A DNA stretch of 64,000 nt, from positions 1-64,000 of the forward strand of contig JAHLKH010000153.1 in NCBI GenBank assembly GCA_025526915.1, in the 5' to 3' direction. This document shows, piece by piece, positions 1 through 32,513 of the stretch. The notes below the pieces were generated by a model that searched no databases, was not told the origin of the DNA, and worked only from the letters and a program-made list of their open reading frames with translations. This DNA comes from Entophlyctis helioformis (taxonomy: Eukaryota; Chytridiomycota; Chytridiomycetes; Chytridiales; Chytriomycetaceae). The stretch's first letter is position 1; every line of letters begins with the position of its first letter. Both the position numbers and the translations under genes were made by a program.

Positions 1-3000
1 GAGCGTGACAGCGTCTGTGTCTTGAACAGCTGCGGCACCGTGATCGGCAGACCCGCACGCTGGCAGGCTGTCGCCGTCTTGATGGCCGAGATCGAGTCAC
101 CGCCGAGTGCAAAGAACGACGTGTTGCGACCAATCGACTCGACCGGCACGCCAAGCACATCGGCCCACACGGCTGCCATGCGCATCTCGGCTTCGCTCGT
201 CGGTGCCTCGACAACAATCACAACGTCCATGGCCGCGAGTGCCTTCTTGTCCGCCTGTCAATGGCATCATCCCAGTTGAGCGTGTCAGCGTCATTCCTTT
301 CACAAGTCAACATCGTCCATCGCCAACTAACCTTGCCGTTGACGTTCATCGGGAACACGTCCATCACAACCACTGCCGATGGTACCATGTACTGCGGCAG
401 TATACTGTGTGCGTGCTCAAGCACCGCCTCAACAGCAACACTCGCCGGCGTCACAAACGCAACAATCGCGCCATCGCGCACCATCGTCACAACACCGTCA
501 ACTCCTGCGCACTGCTGCAGCACCTTGGACACCTCCTCAAGCTCAATGCGGTATCCCTTGACCTTGACCTGATCGTCGCTGCGGCCGAGATACTCGATCT
601 GGCCGTCGGCGTTCCATCGTCCAATGTCGCCCGTGTCGTACATGCGTGCGTCTGGCTGGCTGATGTCTGCCACAAACTTCTCGGCCGTCAAGTCGGGACG
701 GTTCAAGTATCCGCGTGCAATGCCAACACCGCCAATGAACAGACGGCCCTTGACGCCGACGGGGACAGTGCGCAGCTGGTCGTCAAGCACGTAGATGCGC
801 GTGTTGGCAAGCGGTTTGCCAAGCGTGATGCGTGTACCAGCTTGCAACTGCGATGTGGCTGTTGCGAGAATCGTAATCTCAGTCGGGCCGTAGTCCGAGA
901 ACAGCTTGACGTGTTTCGCCCACAGATCAACGAGCGGCTGTGGAGATGCCTCGGCGCCAAGAAGAACGACTTGCAGGTTCGGATAGTCGAGTGGCGCAAT
1001 CTGCTGCAGACCACTCGGGGAGATCGACAGTACATTGGCCCTTGCGATCATTTCCAGAACAGACTCCTTGGCGAACAGGAGCAGAGTCGCTCCGGTCGTA
1101 AGCGCCGAGAACACTTCTTGGAGACAGGCATCGAATCCGACAGTAAATGTCTGCGACATGTTGATGCCTGGTGCCAGATGACTGAAAAGTGGATGGTGGA
1201 CAATGCGCTCGTAGATGCCGCCGTGCTCGATCAGCACTCCCTTGGGCAGTCCGGTCGTGCCTGATGTGAAGATGGTGTATGCGAGCGCATCAGCCGTCGC
1301 AATCTCGGTTGCCTTGGTGGTCGGCAGATCCGATGGAAGAGCGTCCAGGTGGAGCACCAGTCCGCCGTACGTCGATGGAACGGCGTGTGCTGCTGCTGCC
1401 GTCGTGAGCACATGGCCCACATTGCACGACTCGAGCATATAGCTGATGCCGGTCGGCTGGCGTGGATGCCTCGATGGGGACGAATGCAGCGCCAGACTTG
1501 AGCACGCCGAGCAGTCCAACGACAAACTCGATCGACCGCGTCACAATGAGCGCAACAGAGACCTCACGAGTGGCGCCATGCGACTGAAGCAGATGAGCGA
1601 CCTGGTTGGCACGTGCATCCAGCTGTGCGTATGTGACGGTCGAAGTGCCGTCATCCAGAGCAACAGCATCGGCGTTGAGAGCAGCGCACGCCTCGAACGC
1701 GTTGTGGACAAGATCGTATGTGTGCGGCATGGTCGGTCCATGAGCAAACTCGGCGAGTGTCTGCGTCTGTTCAGCTGTCAGCTCGTCAAGCTCAGCAACC
1801 GTCATCTTGTCGTCGATCGCTGATTCGCCTGCGAGCTGGCAAAGGACAGTCGAAAACTTGTCAACCATCGACCGCACGACGACTCGTGGACGTTGTGTGC
1901 CTCGAACGAGCAGGCAATGCTGATCGTTGTGCCTGTCTGCACCAAGCTGATCGATACATTACTGTCGACAAACTCCTTGGCTCGAACGTACTCGAAGCTG
2001 AATGGCAGAACGACTCCTTCGGCACCATCACCAGTCGGGTAGTTCTCAAACACCATGACCGTGTCGAACAGCTTGTCTGTCGTTGGCACGCCTGACCAGC
2101 GCTGAACGTCCACAAGCGAGCAGTGCGAGTGCGACATGGCATCCGCCGAGAACGACTGCATCAATGCAAGCAGCTGCGACGCCGTCATGTCGTCCGTCAG
2201 CCGTGCTGGCACGGGGATCGTGTTGATGAGCACACCGACTGTCTGGTCCAGACCGTCAATGCCGCCGTCGCGTCCAGACACAACCGATCCAAACACGACG
2301 TGCTCGTTGCGTGTGTAGTGCCGAAGCGTCATGGCCCAGGCGGCACGCAGCAGCGTCGACACCGTGACTCCCTGCGTCTTGCACACCTCGTTGAGTCGTG
2401 CAAGCGTCACGGACTCGTCAAATGACTTGTACTTGGGTCCAAGGAGTGCGTCGGCATCAGGCTTGGGAAGCGAGAGCTTGGACGTGTTGGCAACCTGCGA
2501 CAGCGACTCGGCCCAGAACGCCTGGCTGGCGTCGGGAGACTGGCTGATCTGCCACTCGACATAGTCGCGGAACGAGGCTCCTTCCGCAAACACAGGCTGG
2601 CCGGCACATGCTCGGATGAGGTTGCCCTGATGATTGGCAGCGACCATCCGTCTGTGACAGAGTGATGCTGCGTCCAGAACAGGCGGACACGGCCATCTGT
2701 TGTGTGTGAAATGCCGAGTGTGTCCATGGTGATCAGTACAGGTCATTCAATACACATGCAGGCGTCATCAAGGCAATGCACATCTCACCTTCGAGAGCAA
2801 CGCTGTGGAATCGTTGGAACGACTTGCTTGCCATGCTGAAGCCGCGCTGGCGATCCGATGCAAGGAACGCGTCCGTCTTGGCATCAAGCGACTGCGTCTC
2901 GATCGACCACGTGTCCGCACTGCGTGTCCACTCACTGTGGTCCGCCTTGGCAACGACCTGGACCAGACCGCCGCTGGTCGAAACAAACGCCGTGCGCAGG

Positions 3001-3206
3001 ATCGGGAACTGTGCGGCAATCGTGCCAAACGCCTTCTGCAGCGCCGCAATGTCGAGATCGCCACGAATGTCAAACACCGTCTGCACCACATACTCGCTCG
3101 GGTCGCGCATCATCGCTGACAGGAATCCAAGCTGCAGCGGCGTGACCGGGTACATGTCGTCCACATCCACTGGCCGCAGTCCAAGCACCGTGAGTGACTC
3201 GGACTC
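1..3206 (-). other. NRPS module 9 (C-A-T), second family, cut by window edge
   Basis: C domain with HHSVTDGW and a 92-nt intron at 2697-2788; A domain with GFDACLQE; 77-nt intron at 255-331; T domain with LGGDSI near 0.1 kb, followed by the KTATACQRAG type, so a further C domain should lie beyond position 1. Single-base differences from modules 6 and 7 break the frame near 2.63, 1.88 (gacgactc for gaccgactc) and 1.45 kb (gatgccggtc for gatgcggtc). The first bases of the window match position 7933 onward. Confidence 0.87.
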
Positions 3207-6200
3207 GGCGTCGGCAAGCGCAGACTCGGACGGCAACAGTGGCACATCGGCAAGCACACGGCCGCCGATCGTCGCAGCATCTGTGCAGTGTGCAACAATG
3301 CGCTGCATCCACACTGACCACTGTGACATCCATGAATCGAGCATCTCTGCCGTCATCATGAACTCTTCGGACGCCACTGTCAGCACAAGATCCGCTTCGT
3401 TGTGGAAACAGTTCATGCCCACGGGGTGGAACTGCTTGTCCGGCAGGATTGACGGACCAGTTCCGCCAAACGACGTGTCCATGGCAAAGAACGCATCGTC
3501 GCCCTCGAGAGACTGGAACCGGCCGAGGTAGTTGAACGAAATGCGGTGGCCGGCATGCGACTGGATGGCTGCCGTGGCGTCACTCGCTGGCGCAAGGCGC
3601 TTGATGGCGCCATACGACAGTCCCTTGTGCGGCACACTGCGAAGCTTGTGCTTGACCTGCCGCAGCACGTCGCCAATGTGCGACTCGCGAGACGCGGTGA
3701 ACATGGCCGGGTAGATCGTCGTGAACCAGCCGACCGTGTTGGTGATGTCTTGGTCGTCAGTCCATGGCTCGCGTCCGTGGCCCTCGAGATCGATGCACAG
3801 CTGGTGGATGCTGTTGCTGTCCGCCGACGACCGCACATCGGCCAGTGCGAATGTGAGCGCAGCAAGGACAATGTCCTGGATGTTGGTGCCATACGGCATG
3901 TTGGCGGCATCCAGCTGGCTGGTGACAGATGCATCCACGACACCGCGACTGCTGTGGATCTTGGTGCTACGGAGCACCATCGGCAGACGCCACATCAGGC
4001 TGCTGGCCAAAGCCGTCGTCGCGACCCATGTATGCGTCCCACTTGGCAATGCTGGCGGCATCGAGATGGGCCGCAAACTCGGTCTGCTGTCCGACCACGC
4101 CTTGAACGAGAGCGTCTTGGGCGGCAGCGAGCCGCCAGTCAGCAGCGTCTGCAGGTCGTCCAGCAGGATGCGCCACGACACGAGATCCACGACCAGATGG
4201 TGTGCTGTGAACAGCAGACGCTGCGTGCCGTCGGGGAAGACCAAACAGCGATGCTGCAAAGACAGGGCCGTCGGTGATGGACAGCGACTGCTGCACGCTG
4301 CGCACGGCGGCCTCGAGGTCGTCGGCAGAGGCAAGCGGCACAAACGGCACATCGACGGCGGGAATGGCGTCAGGTGCGAGAATGTGCTGCGACCAAGCGA
4401 CGGCGCCAGACGAAGCATCCACGGTGCGCGTGTATCGTGTGCGGAACACGTCGTGGTGTGTGGCAAGGCAGGATGGCCGAGCGCAGAGCGGCAGCGTCGA
4501 GAGCATCGCGCGGCTTGAGAACCACACCTTGGTTGAAGTGGTTGATGTCCAGCCACGGGTGGTTGAAGAACTTGTGCTGGATGGGGGTAAGAGGCACAGG
4601 GCCAGAGACTGGCGCAAACAGCCGTGCGGGATCGACTGCAGCGACGACCTTGGCGGCGGCAGTGAGCGACGACAGCCGAGACAGCTTGAAGATCTGGGCT
4701 GCGGTGATGGCGAAGCCGGCGGTCTTGGCCTTGGCAATGAGGCGGATGGCCGAGATCGAGTCACCGCCGAGTGCAAAGAACGACGTGTTGCGGCCAATCG
4801 ACTCGACCGGCACGCCAAGCACATCGGCCCACACGGCTGCCATGCGCATCTCGGCTTCGCTCGTCGGTGCCTCGACAACAATCACAACGTCCATGGCCGC
4901 GAGTGCCTTCTTGTCCGTCTTGCCGTTGGTGTTGGTCGGCATGGCGTCCAGTCCCACAAACACAGCCGGCACCATGTACGCTGGCAGGTGCTCCGACACC
5001 ACGTCGCGCAGCTCGTCGGCGTCAATGTCGGCGGGTGTCACAAGCCAACCAGGTGCGTCTTGTCCTTGACAATCGCCGCCGCCGCCGTCACGCGCGGGTG
5101 CTTCATCAGTGCGGCTGCAACCTCGTCCAGCTCAATGCGGTATCCCTTGAGCTTGACCTGGTCGTCACGGCGTCCAATGATCTCGAAGCGGCCGTCGGGA
5201 AGCATGCGTCCGAGATCGCCCGTCTTGAACATGCGGCTGCCACACTTGGCTGCAAACTCGCCGCTCGCAAACGGATCGGCCAGGAACTTGTCGGCCGTCA
5301 TCCGGAAGGTTGATGTATCCAGGCGACACGCCAATGCCGCCAATGAACATCTCGCCCATCACACCAGCAGGCACGCGGCGCATCTGCTCGTCCAGAATGT
5401 AGCACGGGCGTTTCGACGGCTAGCCAACGGTGAAGTCGATACGCTGCCATCGGAGAATGAGAATGATCGAATCTCCGTTGGTCCGTATGCGTTGTTGAAG
5501 ACAACGTCGCACCACAGATCCTTGAGCTCCTTGGGACACGCCTCGCCACCAACAGTGATGCTTGAGGCCGGGAACTCGTGGGGATCCGAGCTGCGCAGGA
5601 CCGGTCGGGTGATAGATTGCATCACAGATGGAGCTTTGAACGCATTATCCTCCCGAGAACGAACGTGCATCCGTTATTCAGAGCGGACCAGTCTCCCATT
5701 GGCAGCGTCGAATCCGATGGCCATGAACTGCGCCATCGCATGCCTGGTGTGCATCCGAATCGCTCGTTGCAGTTGCTGACGATGTTGACGGCACCGGCGT
5801 GCGGCACTGGCACGCCCTTGGGGTTGCCCGTCGAGCCTGACGTGTACACGATCATGAACACATCCGATCGAGATGCAGCGTGCTGCTGGTCAGCAGATGC
5901 CTGGAATGCGACAACATCCTTGGCTGATGCCGCTGTGGCCGTGAGTTCGGCCACGGACACCATCACGACTCGCACGGTGGATGGCAGCTGCAGCTGGTCG
6001 ATGCGCTCGCATTCAGACTCGGTCGACAGCACAACCGTCACGCCGGCATCCTCGAGAATGTAGCGCACACGCTCGGCTGGGAACTTGGAGTCGAGCGGCA
6101 CAATCGTCGCGCCAGTCTTGAGCACAGCGAGCAGTGCAAGCGGGAACTCGAGGCATCGCTGCATGATCACTGCGACGCGCGAGCCAACACCAATGCCGCC

Positions 6201-9200
6201 AAGTGCGACGATCTGGTTGGCAAGCAGAGTGCCGCACTTGTCCATCGCGCCATACGTGATCGACTGATCGCCGTACTCGACCGCTGTCCAGTCGGGATGC
6301 TCGGCAGCGACTGCCTCGAAGCCGTGGTGCACTGCCTCGTATGGCAGATCGACCAGCGGTCCGAAGCTGTGTGCGCTGAGCAGCTGCGTCTGAGCAGGCG
6401 ACAGATCCCACAGCGGCTCAATCGACGACTGGGCTGTCACTGCAGCTGCAAGCTGGCCGACCGTGAAGTCAAACTCGGCAAGCATCGACGACGCCTGTGA
6501 GTACGACAGCTGCGAGAAGTCGTACATGGCCATCATCTTGATGTCCGTCGCACTCGGGAACATGATGAGTTCAAAGCCGTACGCGAGCGAGCGTGATGTC
6601 TGCTTCGACTCGAAATTGCTAAGCAGCCTCTCGTCACCATCATCACCAGACAGACGGTCGTCTTGAGGAAGGTTCTCAAACACAAACAGTGTCTGGAACA
6701 GCTTGGCGTCCGATGCAAGTCCGCTCCACTTGTGCACGTCGATCAGTGCTGCATGCGTGTGTGCAAGCATCTGGCCGTAGTCGGCCTGGACGGCACGAAG
6801 GACGTCGGCTGCACTGGTCTCATCCGACTCGATGCGAACGCGGCACGGGACCGTGTTGAGCATGGCTCCGACAATGCTGTTGTCATGGTATTCGGATTAG
6901 TCTCATGTGCAATCATCCAAAATGGTCGCAGCATCTTCCAGTCACTCACCGATCGGCGCCAGCAACGGGAATGTCACGTCCCGACACGACTTGGCCAAAC
7001 ACAATGTCGCTGGATCGCGTGTACTTGCGCAGCGTCATGGCCCATGCCGCCTTGAGGAACACGGCGGCCGTGACGCCGGCTGCCTTGCACGCTGCCTGGA
7101 TCTGCGGCATCGGCAGGCTGCACTGCAGCGACAGCGGCTTGTCCTCGGCGTCTGCGCCGTCCTTGCTGTCCGTCGAGTCGTCCCACTTGCCGAGCGAGAG
7201 TGGCTCGGCTGGTGCAACACCGGCGAGGTACTCGCGCCAGAACGACGCCGTGGCGGCTGCATCCTGTGCTGTGATGTAGTCCACAACAGACCGGAAGGCG
7301 GGTCGCTCTTCGAGTGCGTGGCCGCCATACGCTACGAGCAAGTCGCCCATGATCATCGGCAGGGACCAGCCGTCGTACAGCGTGTGGTGGATCGTGAGCA
7401 CGACTGTCGGCAGCGACTCGTCCGTGGTGTCCGACACGAGCGACAGACGGATCCAGTGCTTGTCGCCGACCGTGAAGCCGCGCACTCTGTCTTGCTCAAG
7501 GAACGCGGCAATGTCCATGTCGGCGGCGAGAGTGACACGCTCGAGTGCAACATCACGCTCGTCGATCTGCGGCCGCACAACCTGCACAATGCCGGCAGTC
7601 GATGTCGGCACAAACGATGTGCGCAGGATGGCGTGGTGCTGCACAAGCGTGCGGAAGGCTGCCTCGAGCGCATCCACATCGATCGCCTGTGTGGCTTGCA
7701 TGGCACCTGGTTGATGTACGCCGATGCGTCCTGGATCGTCGCTGCAACCATGCCAGACTGCAGCGGCGTGGCCGGGAATGCGTCCATGGTCGATGCGTCC
7801 AGCACAAGGCGGTCGACCCATTCGGCCGCAAGCTCGTCAAGCGTGTCCTGCGACAGAGTGGCTGCCGGCCACACTTGCGTGCCGTCAGAGCCAGAGTCGC
7901 CAGACAACGCTGCCTTCTCGGCGAGTGCGGCTGAGCGTGACAGCGTCTGTGTCTTGAACAGCTGCGGCACCGTGATCGGCAGACCCGCACGCTGGCAGGC
8001 TGTTGCCGTCTTGATGGCCGAGATCGAGTCACCGCCGAGTGCAAAGAACGACGTGTTGCGACCAATCGACTCGACCGGCACGCCAAGCACATCGGCCCAC
8101 ACGGCTGCCATGCGCATCTCGGCTTCGCTCGTCGGTGCCTCGACAACAATCACAACGTCCATGGCCGCGAGTGCCTTCTTGTCCGCCTGTCAATGGCATC
8201 ATCCCAGTTGAGCGTGTCAGCGTCATTCCTTTCACAAGTCAACATCGTCCATCGCCAACTAACCTTGCCGTTGACGTTCATCGGGAACACGTCCATCACA
8301 ACCACTGCCGATGGTACCATGTACTGCGGCAGTATACTGTGTGCGTGCTCAAGCACCGCCTCAACAGCAACACTCGCCGGCGTCACAAACGCAACAATCG
8401 CGCCATCGCGCACCATCGTCACAACACCGTCAACTCCTGCGCACTGCTGCAGCACCTTGGACACCTCCTCAAGCTCAATGCGGTATCCCTTGACCTTGAC
8501 CTGATCGTCGCTGCGGCCGAGATACTCGATCTGGCCGTCGGCGTTCCATCGTCCAATGTCGCCCGTGTCGTACATGCGTGCGTCTGGCTGGCTGATGTCT
8601 GCCACAAACTTCTCGGCCGTCAAGTCGGGACGGTTCAAGTATCCGCGTGCAATGCCAACACCGCCAATGAACAGACGGCCCTTGACGCCGACGGGGACAG
8701 TGCGCAGCTGGTCGTCAAGCACGTAGATGCGCGTGTTGGCAAGCGGTTTGCCAAGCGTGATGCGTGTACCAGCTTGCAACTGCGATGTGGCTGTTGCGAG
8801 AATCGTAATCTCAGTCGGGCCGTAGTCCGAGAACAGCTTGACGTGTTTCGCCCACAGATCAACGAGCGGCTGTGGAGATGCCTCGGCGCCAAGAAGAACG
8901 ACTTGCAGGTTCGGATAGTCGAGTGGCGCAATCTGCTGCAGACCACTCGGGGAGATCGACAGTACATTGGCCCTTGCGATCATTTCCAGAACAGACTCCT
9001 TGGCGAACAGGAGCAGAGTCGCTCCGGTCGTAAGCGCCGAGAACACTTCTTGGAGACAGGCATCGAATCCGACAGTAAATGTCTGCGACATGTTGATGCC
9101 TGGTGCCAGATGACTGAAAAGTGGATGGTGGACAATGCGCTCGTAGATGCCGCCGTGCTCGATCAGCACTCCCTTGGGCAGTCCGGTCGTGCCTGATGTG

Positions 9201-21200: not shown

Positions 21201-24200
21201 GTTGATGTATCCAGCAGCCACACCGACACCTCCAAGGACATCTCGCCATCACGCCAGCAGGCACGCGGCGCTGCTGCTCGTCAAGGATGTAGCACGAGGC
21301 GTTGTTGATGGCAGATCCGATGTGATGTCATCGCCAAAATGAGCTTGCGGCGTGCGACATGATCGAGATCTCAGCGGTCCATATGCGTTCGTGAACGTGA
21401 CGTTCGACGTCCACAGATCTTGAGCTCCTTGGGACACGCCTCGCCAGCTACGCTCACAAACTTGAGACCAGGGAAGTTGGACGGGTCGCCAAGCTGAGCG
21501 AGACCGGTGGGGTGATGATAATGGCGTCGACCTTGGAATGGTGGCAAAGGCATCCTCTTCGCGGAGCACAAGCGTGCCGCCATTGCAAACGTTGTCCAGA
21601 TCTCGCACTGGCAGCCGTCGAATCCAATGGCCATGAACTGCGCCATGCGGTCTTGGGCGACACGCCAAACACGGAACGGCCAGCGAGTGCGACGTTCACA
21701 ATGCCAGAGTGAGGCATGAGCACTCCCTTGGGGTTGCCCGTCGAGCCTGACGTGTACACGATCATGAACACATCCGATCGAGATGCGGCGTGCTGCTTGT
21801 CAGCAGATGCCTGGAATGCGACAACATCCTTGGCTGATGCCGCTGTGCCGTGAGTTCGGCCACGGACACCATCACGACTCGCACGGTGGACGGCAGCTGC
21901 AGCTGGTCGATGCGCTCGCATTCAGACTCGGTCGACAGCACAACCGTCACGCCGGCATCCTCGAGAATGTAGCGCACACGCTCGGCTGGGAACTTGGAGT
22001 CGAGCGGCACAATCGTCGCGCCAGTCTTGAGCACAGCGAGCAGTGCAAGCGGGAACTCGAGGCATCGCTGCATGATCACTGCGACGCGCGAGCCAACGCC
22101 AATGCCGCCAAGTGCAACGATCTGGTTGGCAAGCAGAGTGCCGCACTTGTCCATCGCGCCATACGTGATCGACTCGTCGCCGTACTCGACGGCCGTCCAG
22201 TCGGGATGCTCGACAGCGACTGCCTCGAAGCCGTGGTGCACTGCCTCGTATGGCAGATCGACAAGTGGTCCGAAGCTGTGTGCGCTGAGCAGCTGCATCT
22301 GAGCAGGCGACAGATCCCACAGCGGCTCAATCGACGACTGGGCTGTCACTGCAGCTGCAAGCTGGCCGACCGTGAAGTCAAACTCGGCAAGCATCGACGA
22401 CGCCTGTGAGTACGACAGCTGCGAGAAGTCGTACATGGCCGTCATCTTGATGTCCGTCGCACTCGGGAACATGAGAGTTCAAAGCGTACGCCGACGCGAC
22501 GATTCTGCTTGCCGAGTGGCTGAACGGCAGCTGTACATCGCATCCCAGACAGACGGTTGTCTTGAGGAAGGTTCTCATACACAAACAGCGACTGGAACAG
22601 CTTGGCGTCCGATGCAAGTCCGCTCCACTTGTGCACGTCGATCAGTGCTGCATGCGTGTGTGCAAGCATCTGGCCGTAGTCGGCCTGGACGGCACGAAGG
22701 ACGTCGGCTGCACTGGTCTCATCCGACTCGATGCGAACGCGGCACGGGACCGTGTTGAGCATGGCTCCGACAATGCTGTTGTCATGGTATTCGTATTAGT
22801 CTCATGTGCAATCATCCAAAATGGTCGCAGCATCTTCCAGTCACTCACCGATCGGCGCCAGCAACGGGAATGTCACGTCCCGACACGACTTGGCCAAACA
22901 CAATGTCGCTGGATCGCGTGTACTTGCGCAGCGTCATGGCCCATGCCGCCTTGAGGAACACGGCGGCCGTGACGCCGGCTGCCTTGCACGCTGCCTGGAT
23001 CTGCGGCATCGGCAGGCTGCACTGCAGCGACAGCGGCTTGTCCTCGGCGTCTGCGCCGTCCTTGCTGTCCGTCGAGTCGTCCCACTTGCCGAGCGAGAGT
23101 GGCTCGGCTGGTGCAACACCGGCGAGGTACTCGCGCCAGAACGACGCCGTGGCGGCTGCATCCTGTGCTGTGATGTAGTCCACAACAGACCGGAAGGCGG
23201 GTCGCTCTTCGAGTGCGTGGCCGCCATACGCTACGAGCAAGTCGCCCATGATCATCGGCAGGGACCAGCCGTCGTACAGCGTGTGGTGGATCGTGAGCAC
23301 GACTGTCGGCAGCGACTCGTGCGTGGTGTCCGACACGAGCGACAGACGGATCCAGTGCTTGTCGCCGACCGTAAAGCCGCGCACTCTGTCTTGCTCAAGG
23401 AACGCGGCAATGTCCATGTCGGCGGCGAGAGTGACACGCTCGAGTGCAACATCACGCTCGTCGATCTGCGGCCGCACAACCTGCACAATGCCGGCAGTCG
23501 ATGTCGGCACAAACGATGTGCGCAGGATGGCGTGGTGCTGCACAAGCGTGCGGAAGGCTGCCTCGAGCGCATCCACATCGATCGCCTGTGTGGCTTGCAT
23601 CGGCACCTGGTTGATGTACGCCGATGCGTCCTGGATCGTCGCTGCAACCATGCCAGACTGCAGCGGCGTGGCCGGGAATGCGTCCATGGTCGATGCGTCC
23701 AGCACAAGGCGGTCGACCCATTCGGCCGCAAGCTCGTCAAGCGTGTCCTGCGACAGAGTGGCTGCCGGCCACACTTGCGTGCCGTCAGAGCCAGAGTCGC
23801 CAGACAGCGCTGCCTTCTCGGCGAGTGCGGCTGAGCGTGACAGTGTCTGTGTCTTGAACAGCTGCGGCACCGTGATCGGCAGACCCGCACGCTGGCAGGC
23901 TGTTGCCGTCTTGATGGCCGAGATCGAGTCACCGCCGAGTGCAAAGAACGACGTGTTGCGACCAATCGACTCGACCGGCACGCCAAGCACATCGGCCCAC
24001 ACGGCTGCCATGCGCATCTCGGCTTCGCTCGTCGGTGCCTCGACAACAATCACAACGTCCATGGCCGCGAGTGCCTTCTTGTCCGTCTTGCCGTTGGTGT
24101 TGGTCGGCATGGCGTCCAGTCCCACAAACACAGCCGGCACCATGTACGCTGGCAGGTGCTCCGACACCACGTCGCGCAGCTCGTCGGCGTCAATGTCGGC

Positions 24201-27200
24201 GGGTGTCACAAAGCCAACCAGGTGCGTCTTGTCCTTGACAATCGCCGCCGCCGCCGTCACACGCGGGTGCTTCATCAGTGCGGCTGCAACCTCGTCCAGC
24301 TCAATGCGGTATCCCTTGAGCTTGACCTGGTCGTCACGGCGTCCAATGATCTCGAAGCGGCCGTCAGGGAGCATGCGTCCGAGATCGCCCGTCTTGAACA
24401 TGCGGCCATCGGCATCACTGCTGAATGGATCGGCTCGGAATGCAGCCGCCGTCATCTCGGGAAGGTTGATGTATCCAGGCGACGCTCGCACACACGGTGT
24501 GTTTGTAAAGTACTCGCCAATCACTCCGACAGGAACACGGCGTTGCTGCTCGTCAAGCACATAGCAGCGGTTGTTCTGCAGCGGCTGGCCAACGGTGATG
24601 ACCTCGCCAACGGCAAGAACTCCCAAGTGCGAGATGATGCCCGTCTCCGTGGGTCCGTACACGTTGCTCATGACAACTCGGCTCGCCCACACATCGCGGA
24701 GCAGCGTGGTGCATGCCTCGCCACCAATCACAATGTGCTTGAGGTTGCTGAACTCGTCGGGCGAACCGAGCTGCGACAGACCCGTCGGTGTGATGTGCAG
24801 CACGTCGACCGTCGGGATCTTCTCGAATGCATCCTCTGTGCGCAGAACGAGCGTGCATCCGTGGCACAGCGATCCCCACACTTCCCATTGGCAGACGTCG
24901 AATCCAATGGCCATGAACTGCATGACACGGGCACGCGGCACACATCCGATCTTGGGCGACGTGAGCGCAATGACGTTGACGGCACCGGCGTGCGGCACTG
25001 GCACGCCCTTGGGGTTGCCCGTCGAGCCTGACGTGTACACGATCATGAACACATCCGATCGAGATGCAGCGTGCTGCTTGTCAGCAGATGCCTGGAATGC
25101 GACAACATCCTTGGTTGATGCCGCTGTGGCCGTGAGTTCGGCCACGGACACCATCACGACTCGCACGGTGGACGGCAGCTGCAGCTGGTCGATGCGCTCG
25201 CATTCAGACTCGGTCGACAGCACAACCGTCACGCCGGCATCCTCGAGAATGTAGCGCACACGCTCGGCTGGGAACTTGGAGTCGAGCGGCACAATCGTCG
25301 CGCCAGTCTTGAGCACAGCGAGCAGTGCAAGCGGGAACTCGAGGCATCGCTGCATGATCACTGCGACGCGCGAGCCAACGCCAATGCCGCCAAGTGCGAC
25401 GATCTGGTTGGCAAGCAGAGTGCCGCACTTGTCCATCGCGCCATACGTGATCGACTCGTCGCCGTACTCGACGGCCGTCCAGTCGGGATGCTCGGCAGCG
25501 ACTGCCTCGAAGCCGTGGTGCACTGCCTCGTATGGCAGATCGACCAGCGGTCCGAAGCTGTGTGCGTCGAGCAGCTGCGTCTGAGCAGGCGACAGATCCC
25601 ATAGCGGCTCAATCGACGACTGGGCTGTCACTGCAGCTGCAAGCTGGCCGACCGTGAAGTCAAACTCGGCAAGCATCGACGACGCCTGTGAGTACGACAG
25701 CTGCGAGAAGTCGTACATGGCCGTCATCTTGATGTCCGTCGCACTCGGGAACATGATGAGTTCAAAGCCGTACGCGAGCGAGCGTGATGTCTGCTTCGAC
25801 TCGAAGCTGTTGAACGGCAGCTCGTCGACGTTGTCACCAGACAGACGGTCGTCTTGAGGAAGGTTCTCGTAGGTGAACAGCGACTGGAACAGCTTGGCGT
25901 CCGATGCAAGTCCGCTCCACTTGTGCACGTCGATCAGTGCTGCATGCGTGTGTGCAAGCATCTGGCCGTAGTCGGCCTGGACGGCACGAAGGACGTCGGC
26001 TGCACTGGTCTCATCCGACTCGATGCGAACGCGGCACGGGACCGTGTTGAGCATGGCTCCGACAATGCTGTTGTCATGGTAATCGTATTAGTCTCATGTG
26101 CAATCATCCAAAATGGTCGCAGCATCTTCCAGTCACTCACCGATCGGCGCCAGCAACGGGAATGTCACGTCCCGACACGACTTGGCCAAACACAATGTCG
26201 CTGGATCGCGTGTACTTGCGCAGCGTCATGGCCCATGCCGCCTTGAGGAACACGGCGGCCGTGACGCCGGCTGCCTTGCACGCTGCCTGGATCTGCGGCA
26301 TCGGCAGGCTGCACTGCAGCGACAGCGGCTTGTCCTCGGCGTCTGCGCCGTCCTTGCTGTCCGTCGAGTCGTCCCACTTGCCGAGCGAGAGTGGCTCGGC
26401 TGGTGCAACACCGGCGAGGTACTCGCGCCAGAACGACGCCGTGGCGGCTGCATCCTGTGCTGTGATGTAGTCCACAACAGACCGGAAGGCGGGTCGCTCT
26501 TCGAGTGCGTGGCCGCCATACGCTACGAGCAAGTCGCCCATGATCATCGGCAGGGACCAGCCGTCGTACAGCGTGTGGTGGATCGTGAGCACGACTGTCG
26601 GCAGCGACTCGTCCGTGGTGTCCGACACGAGCGACAGACGGATCCAGTGCTTGTCGCCGACCGTAAAGCCGCGCACTCTGTCTTGCTCAAGGAACGCGGC
26701 AATGTCCATGTCGGCGGCGAGAGTGACACGCTCGAGTGCAACATCACGCTCGTCGATCTGCGGCCGCACAACCTGCACAATGCCGGCAGTCGATGTCGGC
26801 ACAAACGATGTGCGCAGGATGGCGTGGTGCTGCACAAGCGTGCGGAAGGCTGCCTCGAGTGCATCCACATCGATCGCCTGTGTGGCTTGCATCGGCACCT
26901 GGTGATGTACGCAGATGCGTCCTGGATCGTCGCTGCAACCATGCCAGACTGCAGCGGCGTGGCCGGGAATGCGTCCATGGTCGATGCGTCCAGCACAAGG
27001 CGGTCGACCCATTCGGCCGCAAGCTCGTCAAGCGTGTCCTGCGACAGAGTGGCTGCCGGCCACACTTGCGTGCCGTCAGAGCCAGAGTCGCCAGACAGCG
27101 CTGCCTTCTCGGCGAGTGCGGCTGAGCGTGACAGTGTCTGTGTCTTGAACAGCTGCGGCACCGTGATCGGCAGACCCGCACGCTGGCAGGCTGTTGCCGT

Positions 27201-30200
27201 CTTGATGACCGACATCGAGTCGCCACCGAGTGCAAAGAACGACGTGTTGCGACCAATCGACTCGACCGGCACGCCAAGCACATCGGCCCACACGGCTGCC
27301 ATGCGCATCTCGGCTTCGCTCGACAGGCTCTCGACAACAATCACAACGTCCATGGCCGCGAGTGCCTTCTTGTCCGTCTTGCCGTTGGTGTTGGTCGGCA
27401 TGGCGTCCAGTCCCACAAACACGGCCGGCACCATGTACGCTGGCAGGTGCTCCGACACCACATCGCGCAGCTCGTCGGCGTCAATGTCGGCGGGTGTCAC
27501 AAAGCCAACCAGGTGCGTCTTGTCCTTGACAATCGCTGCGGCCGCCGTCACACGCGGGTGCTTCATCAGTGCGGCTGCAACCTCGTCCAGCTCAATGCGG
27601 TATCCCTTGAGCTTGACCTGGTCGTCACGGCGTCCAATGATCTCGAAGCGGCCGTCAGGAGCATGCGTCCGAGATCGCCCGTCTTGAACATGCGGCTGCC
27701 ACACTTGGCTGCAAACTCGCCGCTCGCAAACGGATCGGCCAGGAACTTGTCGGCCGTCATGCCAGGCAGGTTGATGTATCCAGGCGACACGCCAATGCCG
27801 CCAATGAACATCTCGCCCATCACACCAGCAGGCACGCGGCGCTTCTGCTCGTCCAGGATGTAGGCAGACACGTTCGAAACGGGCCAGCCGAGGTGAATGT
27901 CGGATACGCTGTCCATCGGATGGATATGAGAAATGATCGAGATCTCCGTTGGTCCGTATGCGTTGTTGAATGTAACAAACGGCAACCACAGATCCTTGAG
28001 CTCCTTGGGACACGCCTCACCGCCAACGGTGATTGTCTTCAGGTTCGGGAACTGCGAAGGCGATCCGAGATGGGCAAGGCCGGTCGGCGTGATGAAGAGA
28101 GAGTTGACCATTTGCACAAACTCGAGTGTATCGCTGCCTCGGAGCACGAGAGTGGCGCCATTGTTGAGCGCGGACCATGTCTCCCATTGGCAGCCGTCGA
28201 ATCCGATGGCCATGAACTGCGCCATTCGCATGCCGGGCGTGCATCCGAATCGCTCGTTGCAGTTGCTGACGATGTTGACGGCACCAGCGTGCGGCACTGG
28301 CACGCCCTTGGGGTTGCCCGTCGAGCCTGACGTGTACACGATCATGAACACATCCGATCGAGATGCAGCGTGCTGCTTGTCAGCGATGCTGGAATGCGAC
28401 AACGGCCTTGGTTGATGCGGCTGTGGAGGAGTTCGGCACGGACACCATCACGACTCGCACGGTGGACGGCAGCTGCAGCTGGTCGATGCGCTCGCATTCA
28501 GACTCGGTCGACAGCACAACCGTCACGCCGGCATCCTCGAGAATGTAGCGCACACGCTCGGCTGGGAACTTGGAGTCGAGCGGCACAATCGTCGCGCCGG
28601 TCTTGAGCACAGCGAGCAGTGCAAGCGGGAACTCGAGGCATCGCTGCATGATCACTGCGACGCGCGAGCCAACACCAATGCCGCCAAGTGCGACGATCTG
28701 GTTGGCAAGCAGAGTGCCGCACTTGTCCATCGCGCCATACGTGATCGACTCGTCGCCGTACTCGACGGCCGTCCAGTCGGGATGCTCGGCAGCGACTGCC
28801 TCGAAGCCGTGGTGCACTGCCTCGTATGGCAGATCCACGAGCGGTCCGAAGCTGTGTGCATCGAGCAGCTGTGTCTGAGCAGGCGACAGATCCCACAGCG
28901 GCTCAATCGACGACTGGGCTGTCACTGCAGCTACAAGCTGGCCGACTGTGAAGTCAAACTCGGCAAGCATCGACGACGCCTGCGTGTGCGACAGCTGCGA
29001 GAAGTCGTACTTGACCTTGAGGTCGAGAGTATGCTGACGAGGGTAGATGATGAGCTCATATGTAAGGCCGAGCGAGCGAGAGACGGCGCCAACGTCCGAG
29101 AGCGTCTTGAAGGCGACAGAGTCTTGCATCTCCATAGGCATGTTTTCGTACACGAACAGCGTCTGGAACAGCTTGGCGTCGGTTGGCAGACCACTGGCCT
29201 TTTGAGCGTCAAGCAGGCCGGTCTGCATAAACGGCAGCATCGTACTATAGTCCGCCTGGAGGCTGCGAGCAACATCAATGGCCGACATATCATCCGAGTC
29301 GATGCGAACGCGGCACGGGACCGTGTTGATCATGGCTCCGACAATGCTGTTGTCATGGTATTCGGATTAGTCTCATGTGCAATCATCCAAAATGGTCGCA
29401 GCATCTTGCAGTCACTCACCGATCGGCGCCAGCAACGGGAATGTCACGTCCTGACACGACCTGGCCAAACACAATGTCGCTGGATCGCGTGTACTTGCGC
29501 AGCGTCATGGCCCATGCCGCCTTGAGGAACACGGCGGCCGTGACGCCGGCTGCCTTGCACGCTGCCTGGATCTGTGGCATCGGCAGGCTGCACTGCAGCG
29601 ACAGCGGCTTGTCCTTGGCGTCTGCGTCGTCCTTGCTGTCCGTTGAGTCGTCCCACTTGCCAAGCGACAGTGGCTCGGCTGGTGCAACACCGGCGAGGTA
29701 CTCGCGCCAGAACGACGCCGTGGCGGCTGCATCCTGTGCTGTGATGTAGTCCACAACAGACCGGAACGCAGGGCGGTCGGCAAGCGGCATGCCAGCATAG
29801 GCAGCCAGGAGATCGTTCATGATGTGCGGCATGGACCATCCATCGAACAGGGCGTGGTGGATCGTGAACACGACGATCGGAAGGGATCCGTCGGTGTTGG
29901 CCACGATCGTCATGCGGCTCCAGTACTTGTCACCGACGGCAAAGCCACGAGCCTTGTCCTTGGCCAGGAAAGCAGCGAGGTCCATGCCGGCGGCGAGAGT
30001 GACACGCTCGAGTGCAACATCACGCTCGTCGATCTGCGGCCGCACAACCTGAACAACACCGGCAGTCGATGTCGGCACAAACGATGTGCGCAGGATGGCG
30101 TGGTGCTGCACAAGTGCGCGGTTCGCGTGCTCAAGAGCGGCTTCGTCCATCGGGATCTTTGCCTGGGCAGCAAACTGGTACAAGTACATGGAGCGGTCCT

Positions 30201-32513
30201 GCATCGTCGCAGCGACCATGCCAGCCTGCAGCGGCGTGGCCGGGAATGCGTCCATGGTCGATGCGTCAATGGCGAGAGGACCAGTCCACTCGCGGGCAAT
30301 CTCGTCGAGCGTCTTGTCGCTGCATGAAATGCGTCCGTCAGCCTCACGCACGTTCAACTCCGCTCTGACAACATCAGCCATGCAAGAGCAACTTACTCGA
30401 GAGTGGCAGCTGGGTAGACAGCAGCACCAGCAGTCGCGCCAGTCTCGGCCGCGAGGCCGACTCGGCAGCGGCGGTTGCCAGCTGGCCAAGGTTTTGGGCT
30501 CCCAGGACCTGCGCCGTCGTCAGGTGGATGCCCTTCTCCTTGGACTTGGCGACCATCTTTATGGCCGCGATCGAGTCACCGCCGAGCTGCAGGAACGACG
30601 AGTTCTTGTCGACCTGCGAGACGTCGACGTTGAGGAACTCGGCGTACATGGCCTTGAGCTCCGGCGGCATGTTGTCAAGGTCCATGTCGCCCATGTCGCC
30701 CATGTCGAACTCGGACGGCTTGGCGGGCTTCTTGGTCTCCGTCATTTCCACGAGGGTCTCTGCATTCTTCGTCGTCGCGACCGCGGCCTTGTCCGCGTCG
30801 GTGGCCAGGGCGTCGGCGACAGCATCCTCGGCCAGCGCGACTGCTGCAGCCGCGACGTGGACTTGAACATCGGCGTCGGCAGCAGTTGCACCAACTGCCG
30901 TGGCTGCCTCTGCGTCAGTCGTCATCGTCGCCGTCGAAGCAGCAACAGCAGCCTGCAGCTTGGCCTCCGCAGCAGCCTTGGCCTTGGCCTTCTTGATGTT
31001 CTTGATAATGTTCCGGCGTCGCTTGCCGGTCACCACCACGGCCGTCGGCCCTTGAGAGCCAGCCAGATAGAGCGAGGGAGTCCAAAGCAGTTCGGCCGAG
31101 CAGCCACCATGCAAGTCGTATTCAGAACAGGCACCAGATACCAGTCAGTCCGACCCAGCCATCCCAGCCATCGCACGCACAGCCAACGACGACTCGAGGC
31201 TGGCATGCATCGACGTGCGTACCTTCAAAGAGGGATCGCCAGTGCGGCAGGCCGGGCGGGCCAGAGTCGTCCGAGTCGATGCTTGAACGGCCCGACGACT
31301 CGCCACCCGTGGCAGCACTTCCGTCGTCGGATCCACGGCCATCAACATCCGCATCACCGGTGCCGCTGCCGCTGCCAAACGCAGCACCAGCCTCGTAGGT
31401 GTAACGGCCGATCGCGAGCGTTTGAAGACACTCGACGACCGTCTCGAAGGCCTTGTCGTCGGTCGGCTGTTCACGCTCACCAAACAAGCCAGAGAACAGC
31501 AGACGCTTCGACATGGCCGACAAGAGTTCGGCCGTCTGGTACACTCGGAAGGTGCGCGTACCGGCAGCAGCAGCAGGATGGCCAGGGTAGATCGTCGGAC
31601 GGACGCGGTTGGAATCGCCGGTGCTGGCAGAGTGGCTTTCACCTGCACCCATCTCACCGTCAATTTCGAGACTGGCGCAGGTGATGTCGCCGTCCGAGTC
31701 GGTCGCGGAGGCGTCCGTGGTCTGTGCATAGTAAGCAAGCAAGAGGCAGTGAAAATGCAGTGCACATTGCATCTGTCAGCTGCCGTGCCCATGGATTCAT
31801 GCAACAGGCAGCGGCACACTAACCCTCATGGTCTCAGAATCGCCTGTAAAGACAGGGGCAGCTCCAGCAGGGCTGGCGGGGCTGGTAGCAGCCTTGGGGA
31901 CCTGCTTGCCAAGCGAAGCAGCCGTCGAGCGCATCAGGCTGTCACGAACGAGGCGACGAGCCGTGCCGTGCGCAAGAAGCGTGGGCTTGCCAGCGCCGCG
32001 AGACTGCTGATGGAACGAGATCTCAGCAGCCTCCCAGTCGGCAGGAGCAACGGGGGCAAACGGACGACGGGCCTGGATAGCCGCGAGGACCGACACAGCC
32101 ATGGCAATCGATCCGTCAGCGCAGATGGCGAGCGGGCCGAGCGGCTCGCCCGCCACGTCAGTTGCCATCGTCGCCGTTGGGGCCAAAGCAAACGCTTGGA
32201 CGGCGTTGACGTTGGCGTTGGCGTCATTGGTCACGCCATCAGCAAACACGTCGGCGGGGCTGGCCGAACCGGCGCCCGTGGCGAGCGACATGGAGAGCGC
32301 GCGAGCACAGGCAGCCAGCTGGCCAAAGGTCAGGCTGTCGTTGTTGGTCTTGCAGGCCACAGCGACGGCGTTCATGTCGCCCTTGGCGAGAAGGAGACTC
32401 ATGTTGGGCTCGGTCATAATCGGGTTTGGCTTGAGCGAGAGCAACTTGGTCTTGTATGTGGCGCAAAGATACTGCCGTTGGAGCGTGGTGGTGGAGCAGG
32501 GGGTGCACGGCAT
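1..32513 (-). CDS. Giant multimodular nonribosomal peptide synthetase (3' end outside window)
   Basis: Thiotemplate enzyme that activates amino acids (A), tethers them on carrier proteins (T), condenses them (C) and in places epimerises them (E). Repeated signatures support this: HHxxxDGW in each C domain, TSGSTG or TSGTTG, YGPTE and GYRIEL in the A domains, LGGDSI in the T domains, and HHLVVDLVSW plus a FNYLGRF motif in the E domains. The order is starter-T, then C-A-T x3, C-A-T-E x2, C-A-T, C-A-T-E, C-A-T. The gene continues beyond position 1, so the release domain is unseen. Introns recur at fixed places and restore the frame across each domain. Start codon is uncertain: 32513 is preferred, 32417 and 32705 are alternatives. 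Many single-base indels interrupt the frame, mostly where a near-identical copy elsewhere is intact, so I treat the gene as real and the breaks as probably technical. Product unknown. Confidence 0.93.
107..1264 (-). repeat. Identical A/T-domain block, copy 1 of 3
   Basis: This segment of module 9 reads the same as 8039-9196 (offset 7,932) and 12703-13860 (offset 12,596) wherever I compared it. Even an antisense frame of 385 codons is unchanged in all three. It spans the second half of the adenylation domain, the 77-nt intron and the start of the T domain. Identical introns argue for very recent duplication or gene conversion. Confidence 0.92.
3207..7880 (-). other. NRPS module 8 (C-A-T-E)
   Basis: First-family C domain (HHTLYDGW, 73-nt intron at 6877-6949). 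The A domain resembles module 2 (VGGEACP, NAYGPTE), although the A4 region at 5.70 kb has lost bases relative to GFDGCQWE. T domain of the pre-E type near 4.75 kb. The E domain (4.6-3.25 kb) has HHLVVDLVSW but is interrupted by several small indels (about 4.48, 4.24, 4.09 and 3.97 kb). A pair of opposite indels near 3.44 and 3.47 kb cancel each other. If intact it would add a D-configured residue. Confidence 0.84.
7881..11135 (-). other. NRPS module 7 (C-A-T), second module family
   Basis: Copy of module 6 without the E domain: C domain with HHSVTDGW and a 92-nt intron at 10626-10717, A domain with GFDACLQE, and a 77-nt intron at 8187-8263. The A domain matches modules 6 and 9 almost base for base. 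Its T domain has the same first half, but from LGGDSISAI onward it switches to the KTATACQRAG type found before C domains. Frame breaks lie near 9.9 kb (one G missing in ttactgtcg) and at 12.17 kb in the preceding E domain. Confidence 0.9.
8039..9196 (-). repeat. Identical A/T-domain block, copy 2 of 3
   Basis: Module 7 copy. It lies 4,664 bp from the module 6 copy and 7,932 bp from the module 9 copy. Similarity continues on both sides, with a switch of T-domain type at the conserved serine motif near 8.0 kb. Confidence 0.92.
11136..15800 (-). other. NRPS module 6 (C-A-T-E), second module family
   Basis: The C domain follows an E domain and has HHSVTDGW. A 92-nt intron (15291-15382, GTGAGA...CAACAG) joins VALE to DGRVRLFW. 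The A domain has TSGTTGLPKG, GFDACLQE, DYGPTE and GYRIEL, and ends with a 77-nt intron (12851-12927, GTTAGT...GACAG) placed exactly after NVNGK. T domain near 12.7 kb of the pre-E type; E domain about 12.55-11.2 kb. From 15321 to 12928 the frame is open for over 800 codons, so this is the best reference copy of the family. The C class is the one expected to accept a D-residue donor, in line with its position after E. Confidence 0.9.
12703..13860 (-). repeat. Identical A/T-domain block, copy 3 of 3
   Basis: Module 6 copy, embedded in the longest uninterrupted reading frame of this module family. It can serve as the reference when judging indels in the other two copies. Confidence 0.92.
15801..20490 (-). 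other. NRPS module 5 (C-A-T-E)
   Basis: C domain with HHTLYDGW and a 73-nt intron at 19499-19571; A domain as in module 4; T domain with LGGDSISAIR near 17.35 kb whose second half (IAKAKTAGF) is of the type found only before E domains. The E domain (about 17.2-15.9 kb) has LTPIQHKFF, HHLVVDLVSW and FNYLGRF, so the residue should be delivered in D form (established E-domain role; substrate unknown). Frame breaks lie near 19.95, 18.25-18.3, 17.64 and 17.12 kb. The one at 17.64 (cacaagcc for cacaaagcc) is shared with module 8 at about 5.04 kb. Confidence 0.88.
20491..23770 (-). other. NRPS module 4 (C-A-T), rich in single-base deletions
   Basis: The C domain has HHTLYDGW and a 73-nt intron at 22776-22848. 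The A domain is nearly the same as that of module 5 (GFDGCQCE, VAGEACP, NAYGPSE), so both probably use the same amino acid. Between 21.23 and 22.56 kb it lacks at least eight single bases that are present in module 5: runs of A, G, T and C are each one base shorter, for example five A to four, ggggg to gggg and ttt to tt. This fragments the frame. The T domain with LGGDSISAI lies near 20.65 kb. The pattern fits long-read homopolymer errors better than decay, but a decayed module cannot be excluded. Confidence 0.82.
23771..27060 (-). other. NRPS module 3 (C-A-T)
   Basis: This is the only stretch that reads open over a full A-T-C span: more than 1,060 codons from 26054 down through the next C domain. 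The C domain has HHTLYDGW, with a 73-nt intron at 26068-26140. The A domain has GFDVCQWE, VIGGEAC, NVYGPTE and GYRIEL, giving a pocket start D-V-W that differs from every other module here. Its central part (24.4-24.95 kb) is the most distinct A-domain sequence of this family and may select a different residue. The T domain carries LGGDSISAIK near 23.9 kb. There is a 1-bp break near 26.9 kb at its 5' end. Confidence 0.9.
27061..30396 (-). other. NRPS module 2 (C-A-T)
   Basis: It opens with a 77-nt intron (30320-30396, GTAAGT...GCAG) that joins PAATL to DDKTLDEIARE. The C domain carries HHALFDGW and is split by a 73-nt intron (29347-29419) between GADR and IVGAM. The A domain has TSGSTGNPKG, GFDGCQWE, NAYGPTE and GYRIEL; the T domain has LGGDSMSVI near 27.2 kb. 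This C domain diverges most from its relatives in the 29.0-30.3 kb part (for example DAQKASGLP where others read DVHKWSGLA). Frame breaks occur near 28.39, 27.66 and 26.9 kb; at 27.66 kb one base is missing from the run around GGAGCATGCG. The specificity pocket resembles that of module 8 (D-G-W start of the A-domain code, my alignment). Substrate not assigned. Confidence 0.88.
30397..32513 (-). other. NRPS starter region: partial adenylation-like segment plus first carrier protein
   Basis: The first 230 residues contain a stretch (SLTFGQLAACARAL and GPLAICADGSIAMAV) resembling the N-terminal subdomain of AMP-forming enzymes. No TSGTTG, YGPTE or GYRIEL motif follows. Instead there is a low-complexity Ser/Gly/Asp segment, a basic Lys/Ala linker and a carrier protein with LQLGGDSIAAIK near 30.55-30.6 kb. 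Proposed introns are 31722-31823 (donor GTTAGT, acceptor GCACAG, phase 0) and, less surely, 31051-31222 (donor GTACGC). One base appears to be missing near 30.45 kb, because the linker reads VYPAATL only in another frame. The starter therefore looks unable to activate its own substrate, which is inference. Confidence 0.6.

Follow-up and report, generated by a model that had tools for sequence, protein, structure and literature searches.

The DNA analysed here, called the window below, is the stretch of 64,000 bases at the start of a 67,810-bp contig (C153; window base 1 is contig base 1) from the chytrid Entophlyctis helioformis. It carries on its minus strand a nonribosomal peptide synthetase (NRPS) gene that starts near position 32,417 and runs off the contig at base 1, and is hence incomplete. 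Its repeated modules of condensation (C), adenylation (A) and carrier (T) domains, with the carrier serine and the C-domain HHxxxD in one gene, make the locus a modular (type I) NRPS. Taken as a whole, it is best explained, with a probability of about three in four, as a member of an FSH1-family of NRPSs of E. helioformis in which conversion within the gene has spared the substrate pockets, the breaks in its reading frame being errors of the assembly.

From 32.4 kb toward base 1, the domains follow the order vestigial A - T1 - C1A1T2 - C2A2T3 - C3A3T4 - C4A4T5-E1 - C5A5T6-E2 - C6A6T7 - C7A7T8-E3 - C8A8T9, where E stands for epimerization, which gives nine carriers, eight C-A pairs and three E domains on the contig. 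The domain calls come from Pfam scans of 30 minus-strand open stretches, a genome-wide carrier search and motif positions, and these agree on the numbers, which an earlier note on this DNA had also given. That note was likewise right that the gene is still incomplete (the contig ends inside T9) and that a very large NRPS is present in an early-diverging fungus, the host being a chytrid. A motif scan found GGDS in 9 of 9 carriers, HHxxxDG in 8 of 8 C domains and motifs A3 and A8 in 8 of 8 A domains. A home-made gene model with a single product of 9,778 aa was dropped because many frame changes had been called introns with poor splice sites, and the analysis has since rested on open pieces. The domains found are these:

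31800..32417, minus strand, N-terminus with a vestigial A-like segment, ATG at about 32417 (similarity to the sister gene on contig C391 and to Batrachochytrium dendrobatidis P0016)
30473..30661, minus strand, T1, carrier with QLGGDSIAA (PF00550)
28911..30249, minus strand, C1, split by a 73-nt intron at 29347-29419 (PF00668)
27378..28805, minus strand, A1, frame broken (PF00501/PF13193)
27123..27299, minus strand, T2 (Pfam and carrier search)
25620..26907, minus strand, C2, intron 26068-26140 (Pfam; low end estimated)
24087..25511, minus strand, A2, within an intact 1080-aa open frame at 22848-26087 (PF00501, 219.5 bits)
23832..24008, minus strand, T3 (Pfam and carrier search)
22330..23681, minus strand, C3, intron 22776-22848 (Pfam; low end estimated from module 2)
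20808..22229, minus strand, A3, frame broken (Pfam)
20553..20729, minus strand, T4 (Pfam and carrier search)
19051..20402, minus strand, C4, intron 19499-19571 (Pfam)
17500..18942, minus strand, A4, frame broken (Pfam; low end estimated from motif A10)
17255..17437, minus strand, T5 (Pfam and carrier search)
15873..17123, minus strand, E1 (PF00668; TIGR01720)
14419..15755, minus strand, C5, intron 15291-15382 (Pfam)
12928..14292, minus strand, A5, followed by a 77-nt intron at 12851-12927 at its NGK motif (Pfam)
12590..12772, minus strand, T6 (Pfam and carrier search)
11208..12535, minus strand, E2 (Pfam; TIGR01720)
9955..11090, minus strand, C6, intron 10626-10717 (Pfam)
8264..9628, minus strand, A6, followed by a 77-nt intron at 8187-8263 (Pfam)
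7932..8108, minus strand, T7 (Pfam and carrier search)
6426..7719, minus strand, C7, intron 6877-6949 (Pfam)
4907..6320, minus strand, A7, frame broken (Pfam and motifs)
4658..4840, minus strand, T8 (Pfam and carrier search)
3279..4604, minus strand, E3 (Pfam; TIGR01720 just under its cut-off; upper end estimated)
1850..3161, minus strand, C8, intron 2697-2788 (Pfam)
332..1700, minus strand, A8, upper part frame-broken, followed by a 77-nt intron at 255-331 (Pfam; upper end estimated)
6..176, minus strand, T9, truncated at the contig end, a carrier of the kind found before C domains (carrier search and motifs)

In the N-terminal flank of the A domain, identity among modules 1-4 and 7 is about 97-98%. 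In a codon-wise comparison of modules 1, 3, 4 and 7 with the intact frame of module 2 (flanks, residues 131-351 and 586-719; core, residues 367-560), four-fold sites in the flanks were identical to module 2 in 195/208, 191/199, 150/156 and 189/195 cases, respectively, against 25/56, 5/8, 20/43 and 9/12 in the core (Fisher p of 3e-15, 0.005, 3e-13 and 0.010). Since motif A3 lies at residue 351 and A8 at residue 582, the change of history falls between these two motifs, and purifying selection on the protein does not explain the contrast because it sits at silent sites. Flank and core were also searched genome-wide (40 candidates scored per search). Among the matches scored, the module 2 flank is 97-98% identical within its own gene, 97% on contig C474 (a repeat of the locus) and 90-93% elsewhere, while the module 2 core finds its best match on contig C459 (94% at the DNA level; 188 of 194 residues) and at most 75% elsewhere, barring two 39-base pieces at 90%. 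The module 4 core is nearest to C107b, at 91% with gap columns left out, a convention shared by all values of the identity matrix and one that raises the values for cores (module 2 against module 7, 85% instead of 69%).

Trees of eight modules, from which module 3, C474 and C107a (of 11 flank rows) and C107a (of 9 core rows) were omitted, conflict in the same way. The flank tree groups the four window modules with support of 100/100 and rejects a grouping of module 2 with C459a (p-AU 3e-67), whereas the core tree groups module 2 with C459a, again at 100/100, and rejects the grouping of the four window modules (p-AU 7e-68). Such a conflict could also arise if A cores had been swapped between genes by recombination, as the nearest relatives of the cores of modules 2 and 4 on other contigs and the recombination of A-core segments described for bacterial NRPSs in the available text of PMC9205934 would suggest. 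We regard this as the less likely reading, though a serious one. Module 2 and C459a differ to about the same degree at the four-fold sites of the core (85/107 identical) and of the flanks (163/195), the pattern that joint inheritance of the two, followed by overwriting of the flanks in the window gene, would leave; this favours flank conversion within that gene over the transport of cores. According to the same source (and to Calcott and Baunach as cited there), exchange boundaries in bacteria likewise lie around the A-domain core; the bacterial event described runs from motif A2 to motifs A5/A6, whereas here the boundaries are A3 and A8, the host is a eukaryote and the near-identical flanks are within one gene.

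Under the conversion reading, the chassis of the modules would be homogenised inside the gene by conversion or by repeated duplication, and conversion tracts would stop at the diverged A core, so that substrate identity survives. A more detailed version, in which intragenic conversion rewrites the C-A-T chassis, module number grows by tandem copying and a second exchange point lies in the carrier at GGDS, is put forward tentatively and might well prove wrong. Module 5 has a distant A domain, yet between motif A10 and GGDS it shares 33 of 33 four-fold sites with module 2. From motif A3 onward, the A domains of modules 5, 6 and 8 agree at 330 of 330 residues. These modules also share about 1.4 kb that is nearly free of mismatches (window 1-1420, 7933-9431 and 12677-14095), unlike the other repeats. 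This near-identity probably reflects either very recent copying or an effect of the assembly. Tandem module duplication within one fungal gene has likewise been described for the cyclosporin and peptaibol synthetases in the available text of PMC2823734; these belong to other fungal subfamilies and are likened here by description.

Several points weigh against the explanation that we prefer. Modules 3 and 7 have few readable four-fold sites in the core (8 and 12), which weakens their tests, and the groups tested with the trees were chosen after the identity matrix had been seen, so that their p values are descriptive. Flank homogeneity could have been inflated by mis-recruitment of reads in the consensus of near-identical repeats, and the frame breaks could be real decay. 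Finally, the C-terminus of the window gene lies past the contig end, and FSH1 release is extrapolated from its sister genes.

The assembly behind the genome-wide searches (29.57 Mb in 482 contigs) is itself a possible source of the pattern, either by a false lengthening of the array or by homogenisation of its modules. The contig ends inside a repeat, redundant contigs exist (C474; C21 and C326), and the long tract shared by modules 5, 6 and 8 is of the kind that such an artefact would leave. We nevertheless give this explanation a small chance only. Within the window, the longest three pairs of duplicates differ by 77, 43 and 52 mismatches, whereas C21 and C326 are free of mismatches; the separate contigs C459 and C107 agree with each other in a module common to both (core 100%, flank 99.5%), and their flanks likewise cluster by gene; and the order of modules is chemically sensible, each of the three E domains being followed by the same type of C domain.

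One-base indels break the reading frame in several modules. At least modules 1, 3, 4, 6, 7 and 8 show frame changes that no predicted intron accounts for, and many one-base gaps separate copies of a module that are otherwise nearly identical. This would be expected of a decaying pseudogene whose array is no longer made as one protein. However, the same kind of defect is seen in one of the two contig copies of the essential gene RPC2, which on C326 and C21 align over 3,638 columns with no mismatch and 11 one-base gaps. Because redundant contigs keep uncorrected indels even in such a gene, the breaks in the NRPS are, from the sequences compared, best read as consensus errors. The 1080-aa frame of module 2 is open, every module has its HHxxxDG, GGDS, A3 and A8 motifs, and between genes the flanks retain residues over silent sites (315 of 337 residues between module 2 and C459a, against the proportion of four-fold sites given above), all of which speaks against decay, a reading to which we give a small probability. 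The copy of window 26716-32732 on C474 (C474:1-6000; 98.96% identity, 22 mismatches, 41 gap positions) is probably an allele or a redundant contig.

Eleven introns are predicted, at conserved places and with conserved interiors, all of them GT...AG and none with a length that is a multiple of three. The 73-nt intron occupies a single C-domain position in five modules (C1, C2, C3, C4 and C7), the 92-nt intron is found at another place in C5, C6 and C8 (each of them directly after an E domain) and the 77-nt intron at the end of A5, A6 and A8. The E domains and T1 yielded no intron. As all eight C-A modules have at least one, the gene is eukaryotic, and the claim of an intron in every module, made before from the sequence, stands for these predictions.

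All three E domains carry EGHGRE and score near or above the cut-off (74.2 bits) of the E-specific model TIGR01720, with 75.5, 77.4 and 71.0 bits for E1, E2 and E3. Compared with solved structures, the E1 stretch is closest to PvdL chains, followed by the bacitracin, tyrocidine and gramicidin S synthetases. At window positions 4202, 12134 and 16799, all three E domains read HHLVVDLVS; a glycine is usual where L stands after D. In three of three cases, the E domain is followed by a C domain of the type with the 92-nt intron (E1-C5, E2-C6, E3-C8). C5, C6 and C8 are read as D-accepting because each adjoins an E domain and they share an intron pattern of their own. The gene thus appears to follow an epimerising plan, with E placed after T and before a putative D-accepting C. 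At the other end, the T9 region (bases 1-253) has an identity of 99.2% to that of T3 and of 98.8% to that of T4; T9 is therefore of the type that precedes a C domain, and at least one further module is expected.

Grouped by their printed sequences and identities alone, the A domains fall into four pocket types (A1/A7, A2, A3/A4, and A5, A6 and A8, which are equal). In the proposed model, T1, which seems to have no A domain of its own, would be loaded in trans or left as a leader, and A1 to A8 would add at least eight residues, of which residues 4, 5 and 7 would be epimerised to D and positions 5, 6 and 8 would hold one repeated residue type.

The first 1.3 kb of the gene (about 31.1-32.4 kb) has no Pfam match, and its vestigial A-like segment gave none even at E<=10. 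The N-terminal stretch is, however, similar to the N-terminus of the sister gene on C391 (29% identity, E 9e-15) and to B. dendrobatidis P0016 (24%, E 3e-5), and the C391 counterpart matches PF00501 at positions 9-98 of 384 only, below the cut-off. We read this stretch as a probable vestigial A domain; behind it comes T1, whose GGDS is intact. An N-terminal vestigial A followed by T is a trait of the family, and the window gene has it.

C-domain matches in the genome number at least 118 on 21 contigs (87 of 163 candidates scored), and carrier matches 84 on 24 contigs. The earlier note had described fungi of this kind as generally poor in large NRPS genes, with one such gene here; the large gene in a chytrid is real, but the spread of C-domain matches shows that it belongs to a gene family rather than standing alone. 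Some contigs are redundant (C474 with C153; probably C459 with C107), so there are fewer genes than contigs. The near-identity of modules, the frame breaks and the FSH1 ends of the sister genes had not been mentioned in that note.

A search for FSH1 (PF03959), a serine hydrolase, returned 18 matches in the genome, 14 of them on 13 NRPS contigs and the remaining four on two contigs (C97 and C266) that have neither a C nor a carrier match. On 12 of the 13 NRPS contigs, a carrier match lies no more than 340 nt upstream of FSH1 (on C107, no carrier match was scored there), and the nucleophile motif GFSQG is present in 9 of the 11 FSH1 loci scanned. The small sister gene on C391, read in pieces, has the organisation vestigial A-T-C-A-T-FSH1; NCBIfam had no match for its FSH1 piece. 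Two other types of release are not supported in this genome. The classical thioesterase (PF00975) has one match in the genome, at 28.8 bits (cut-off 26.4), on contig C257, which is no NRPS contig, and the reductase end (PF07993) has its one strong match on C132, next to a single carrier, and a weak one on C3.

By analogy with its sisters, the window gene probably ends in FSH1 too, and the chain would leave via this hydrolase past the contig end. The family plan would then be vestigial A - T - (C-A-T, with E where a D-residue is made)n - T-FSH1, and would be lineage-specific. That a fused FSH1 hydrolase replaces the thioesterase throughout the family, jointly with intragenic conversion that spares the A cores, is a possibility to which we lend slightly less than even credence. 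The T-FSH1 fusion itself is not new, since the B. dendrobatidis NRPS BDEG_03514 was already described with an FSH1 end (T-C-T-A-T then FSH1, according to the available text of Bushley and Turgeon, PMC2823734). A search for FSH1-only proteins recovered two proteins among 349 candidates and missed known cases, and is therefore uninformative on absence elsewhere.

P0016, presumably the protein BDEG_03514 of the 2010 survey by Bushley and Turgeon, resembles the window gene in its vestigial A-like N-terminus, in the T, C, A and T that follow and in its A, C and T sequences. It differs in having one C-A module and no E domain matched, against at least eight C-A modules in the window gene, and in that its FSH1 end is present, whereas the end of the window gene lies past the contig. 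NRPSs with T-C-A-T-FSH1 domains are found in both Batrachochytrium species (P0016 and P0241). The NRPSs of Polyrhizophydium stewartii (P0001, P0003, P0006, P0008, P0011 and P0014) are 53-56% identical to the window gene in their best rows and 40-67% over all rows listed, in a comparison that covered proteins of less than 1,900 aa, and three of them (P0006, P0011 and P0014) have the T-FSH1 end of the sisters of the window gene. Those of the oomycete Aphanomyces (P0078, P0002, P0004, P0005 and others) form one clade with the chytrid A-T domains (100/100), and P0078 is an A-T-FSH1 protein; they differ in their identity (36-49% in the rows listed), in forming a clade of their own and in a distant FSH1 (28%).

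The best 36 of the 120 proteins listed (7,997 candidates scored) all come from Polyrhizophydium, Aphanomyces, Chytridiales sp. JEL 0842 and B. dendrobatidis, and the named entries of the 120 include no Dikarya, of which no reference set was aligned. The A-T tree has 60 rows, namely 58 stretches from 38 chosen proteins (of 121 NRPS proteins) and two from the window, with a narrow bacterial set and without Dikarya. In it, a clade of 27 rows (100/100) unites module 2 with the chytrids and Aphanomyces; 29 bacterial or unnamed rows lie outside it, as do three rows from the fungus Dimargaris. Inside this clade, Aphanomyces and Polyrhizophydium each have their own clade. The module 6 A domain is placed immediately outside the clade, though on weak support (83/31). 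A transfer of NRPS genes between chytrids and oomycetes is possible, judging from the A-T clade; the FSH1 tree has long branches and left the Aphanomyces FSH1 unplaced. Recent transfer from bacteria, or the bacterial contamination that the earlier note had envisaged, is very improbable: the domains do resemble those of bacterial NRPSs in the PDB (gramicidin, tyrocidine), but the eleven introns predicted at conserved places, the nearest proteins and the separation of the bacterial rows all speak against it. The gene thus lies outside the class of bacterial-like NRPSs newly acquired from bacteria, which have bacterial closest relatives and no introns.

With regard to the host, NCBI taxonomy places E. 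helioformis under Chytridiales, and in the available text of PMC11797018 strain JEL805 (from Amses et al. 2022) is named among Batrachochytrium relatives. The open stretches of RPC2 (C326 copy) are 86% identical to Batrachochytrium salamandrivorans, 85% to P. stewartii and 84% to B. dendrobatidis. The RPC2 protein P0154 of E. helioformis agrees with the C21 copy in a single stretch of 144 of 144 residues and has frame-shifted residues that are present in this copy and absent from that on C326; its final 126 residues, however, agree with C326 at 126 of 126 and align to C21 with gaps. On balance E. helioformis is almost certainly the host. An origin from Mortierella or Basidiobolus is rejected on the nearest NRPS proteins and on the RPC2 matches, and an 18S pattern search gave no match.

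The right side of the NRPS gene is upstream of its start, and had been described as a housekeeping region without accessory genes. No tailoring enzyme was recognised by Pfam among 20 hand-picked open stretches there, and the downstream side lies beyond the contig end. The region is not clearly housekeeping; 3 of the 20 stretches had a Pfam match:

37577-40981, upstream side, leucine-rich repeat (LRR) protein (Pfam)
58354-59946, upstream side, protein kinase (Pfam)
62428-63573, about 30 kb upstream of the NRPS start, DUF3533/ABC2-like membrane protein (Pfam)

The 2010 survey counted three NRPS-type genes in B. dendrobatidis, one of them an alpha-aminoadipate reductase (AAR), according to the available text of PMC2823734, and in that of a 2020 paper the Chytridiomycota are counted among the fungi with few secondary metabolites (PMC7466969). 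In a limited literature search, we found no paper on this NRPS family in E. helioformis, none on NRPSs among those listed that name the species (judged by title or the start of the abstract) and none that treats the NRPSs of chytrids and Aphanomyces oomycetes together. A chytrid with C-domain matches on 21 contigs and a gene of at least nine carriers alters the picture of NRPS-poor fungi and points to unexplored peptides. The interest of the system lies in the size of the family in a chytrid, in the opposite histories of chassis and pockets and in the FSH1 ends of the sister genes, a fused release hydrolase other than the usual thioesterase. The conflict between flanks and cores may be seen as a natural experiment in how eukaryotic assembly lines duplicate modules while keeping substrate identity, and its boundaries could be used as hypotheses on the fusion points that such enzymes tolerate.

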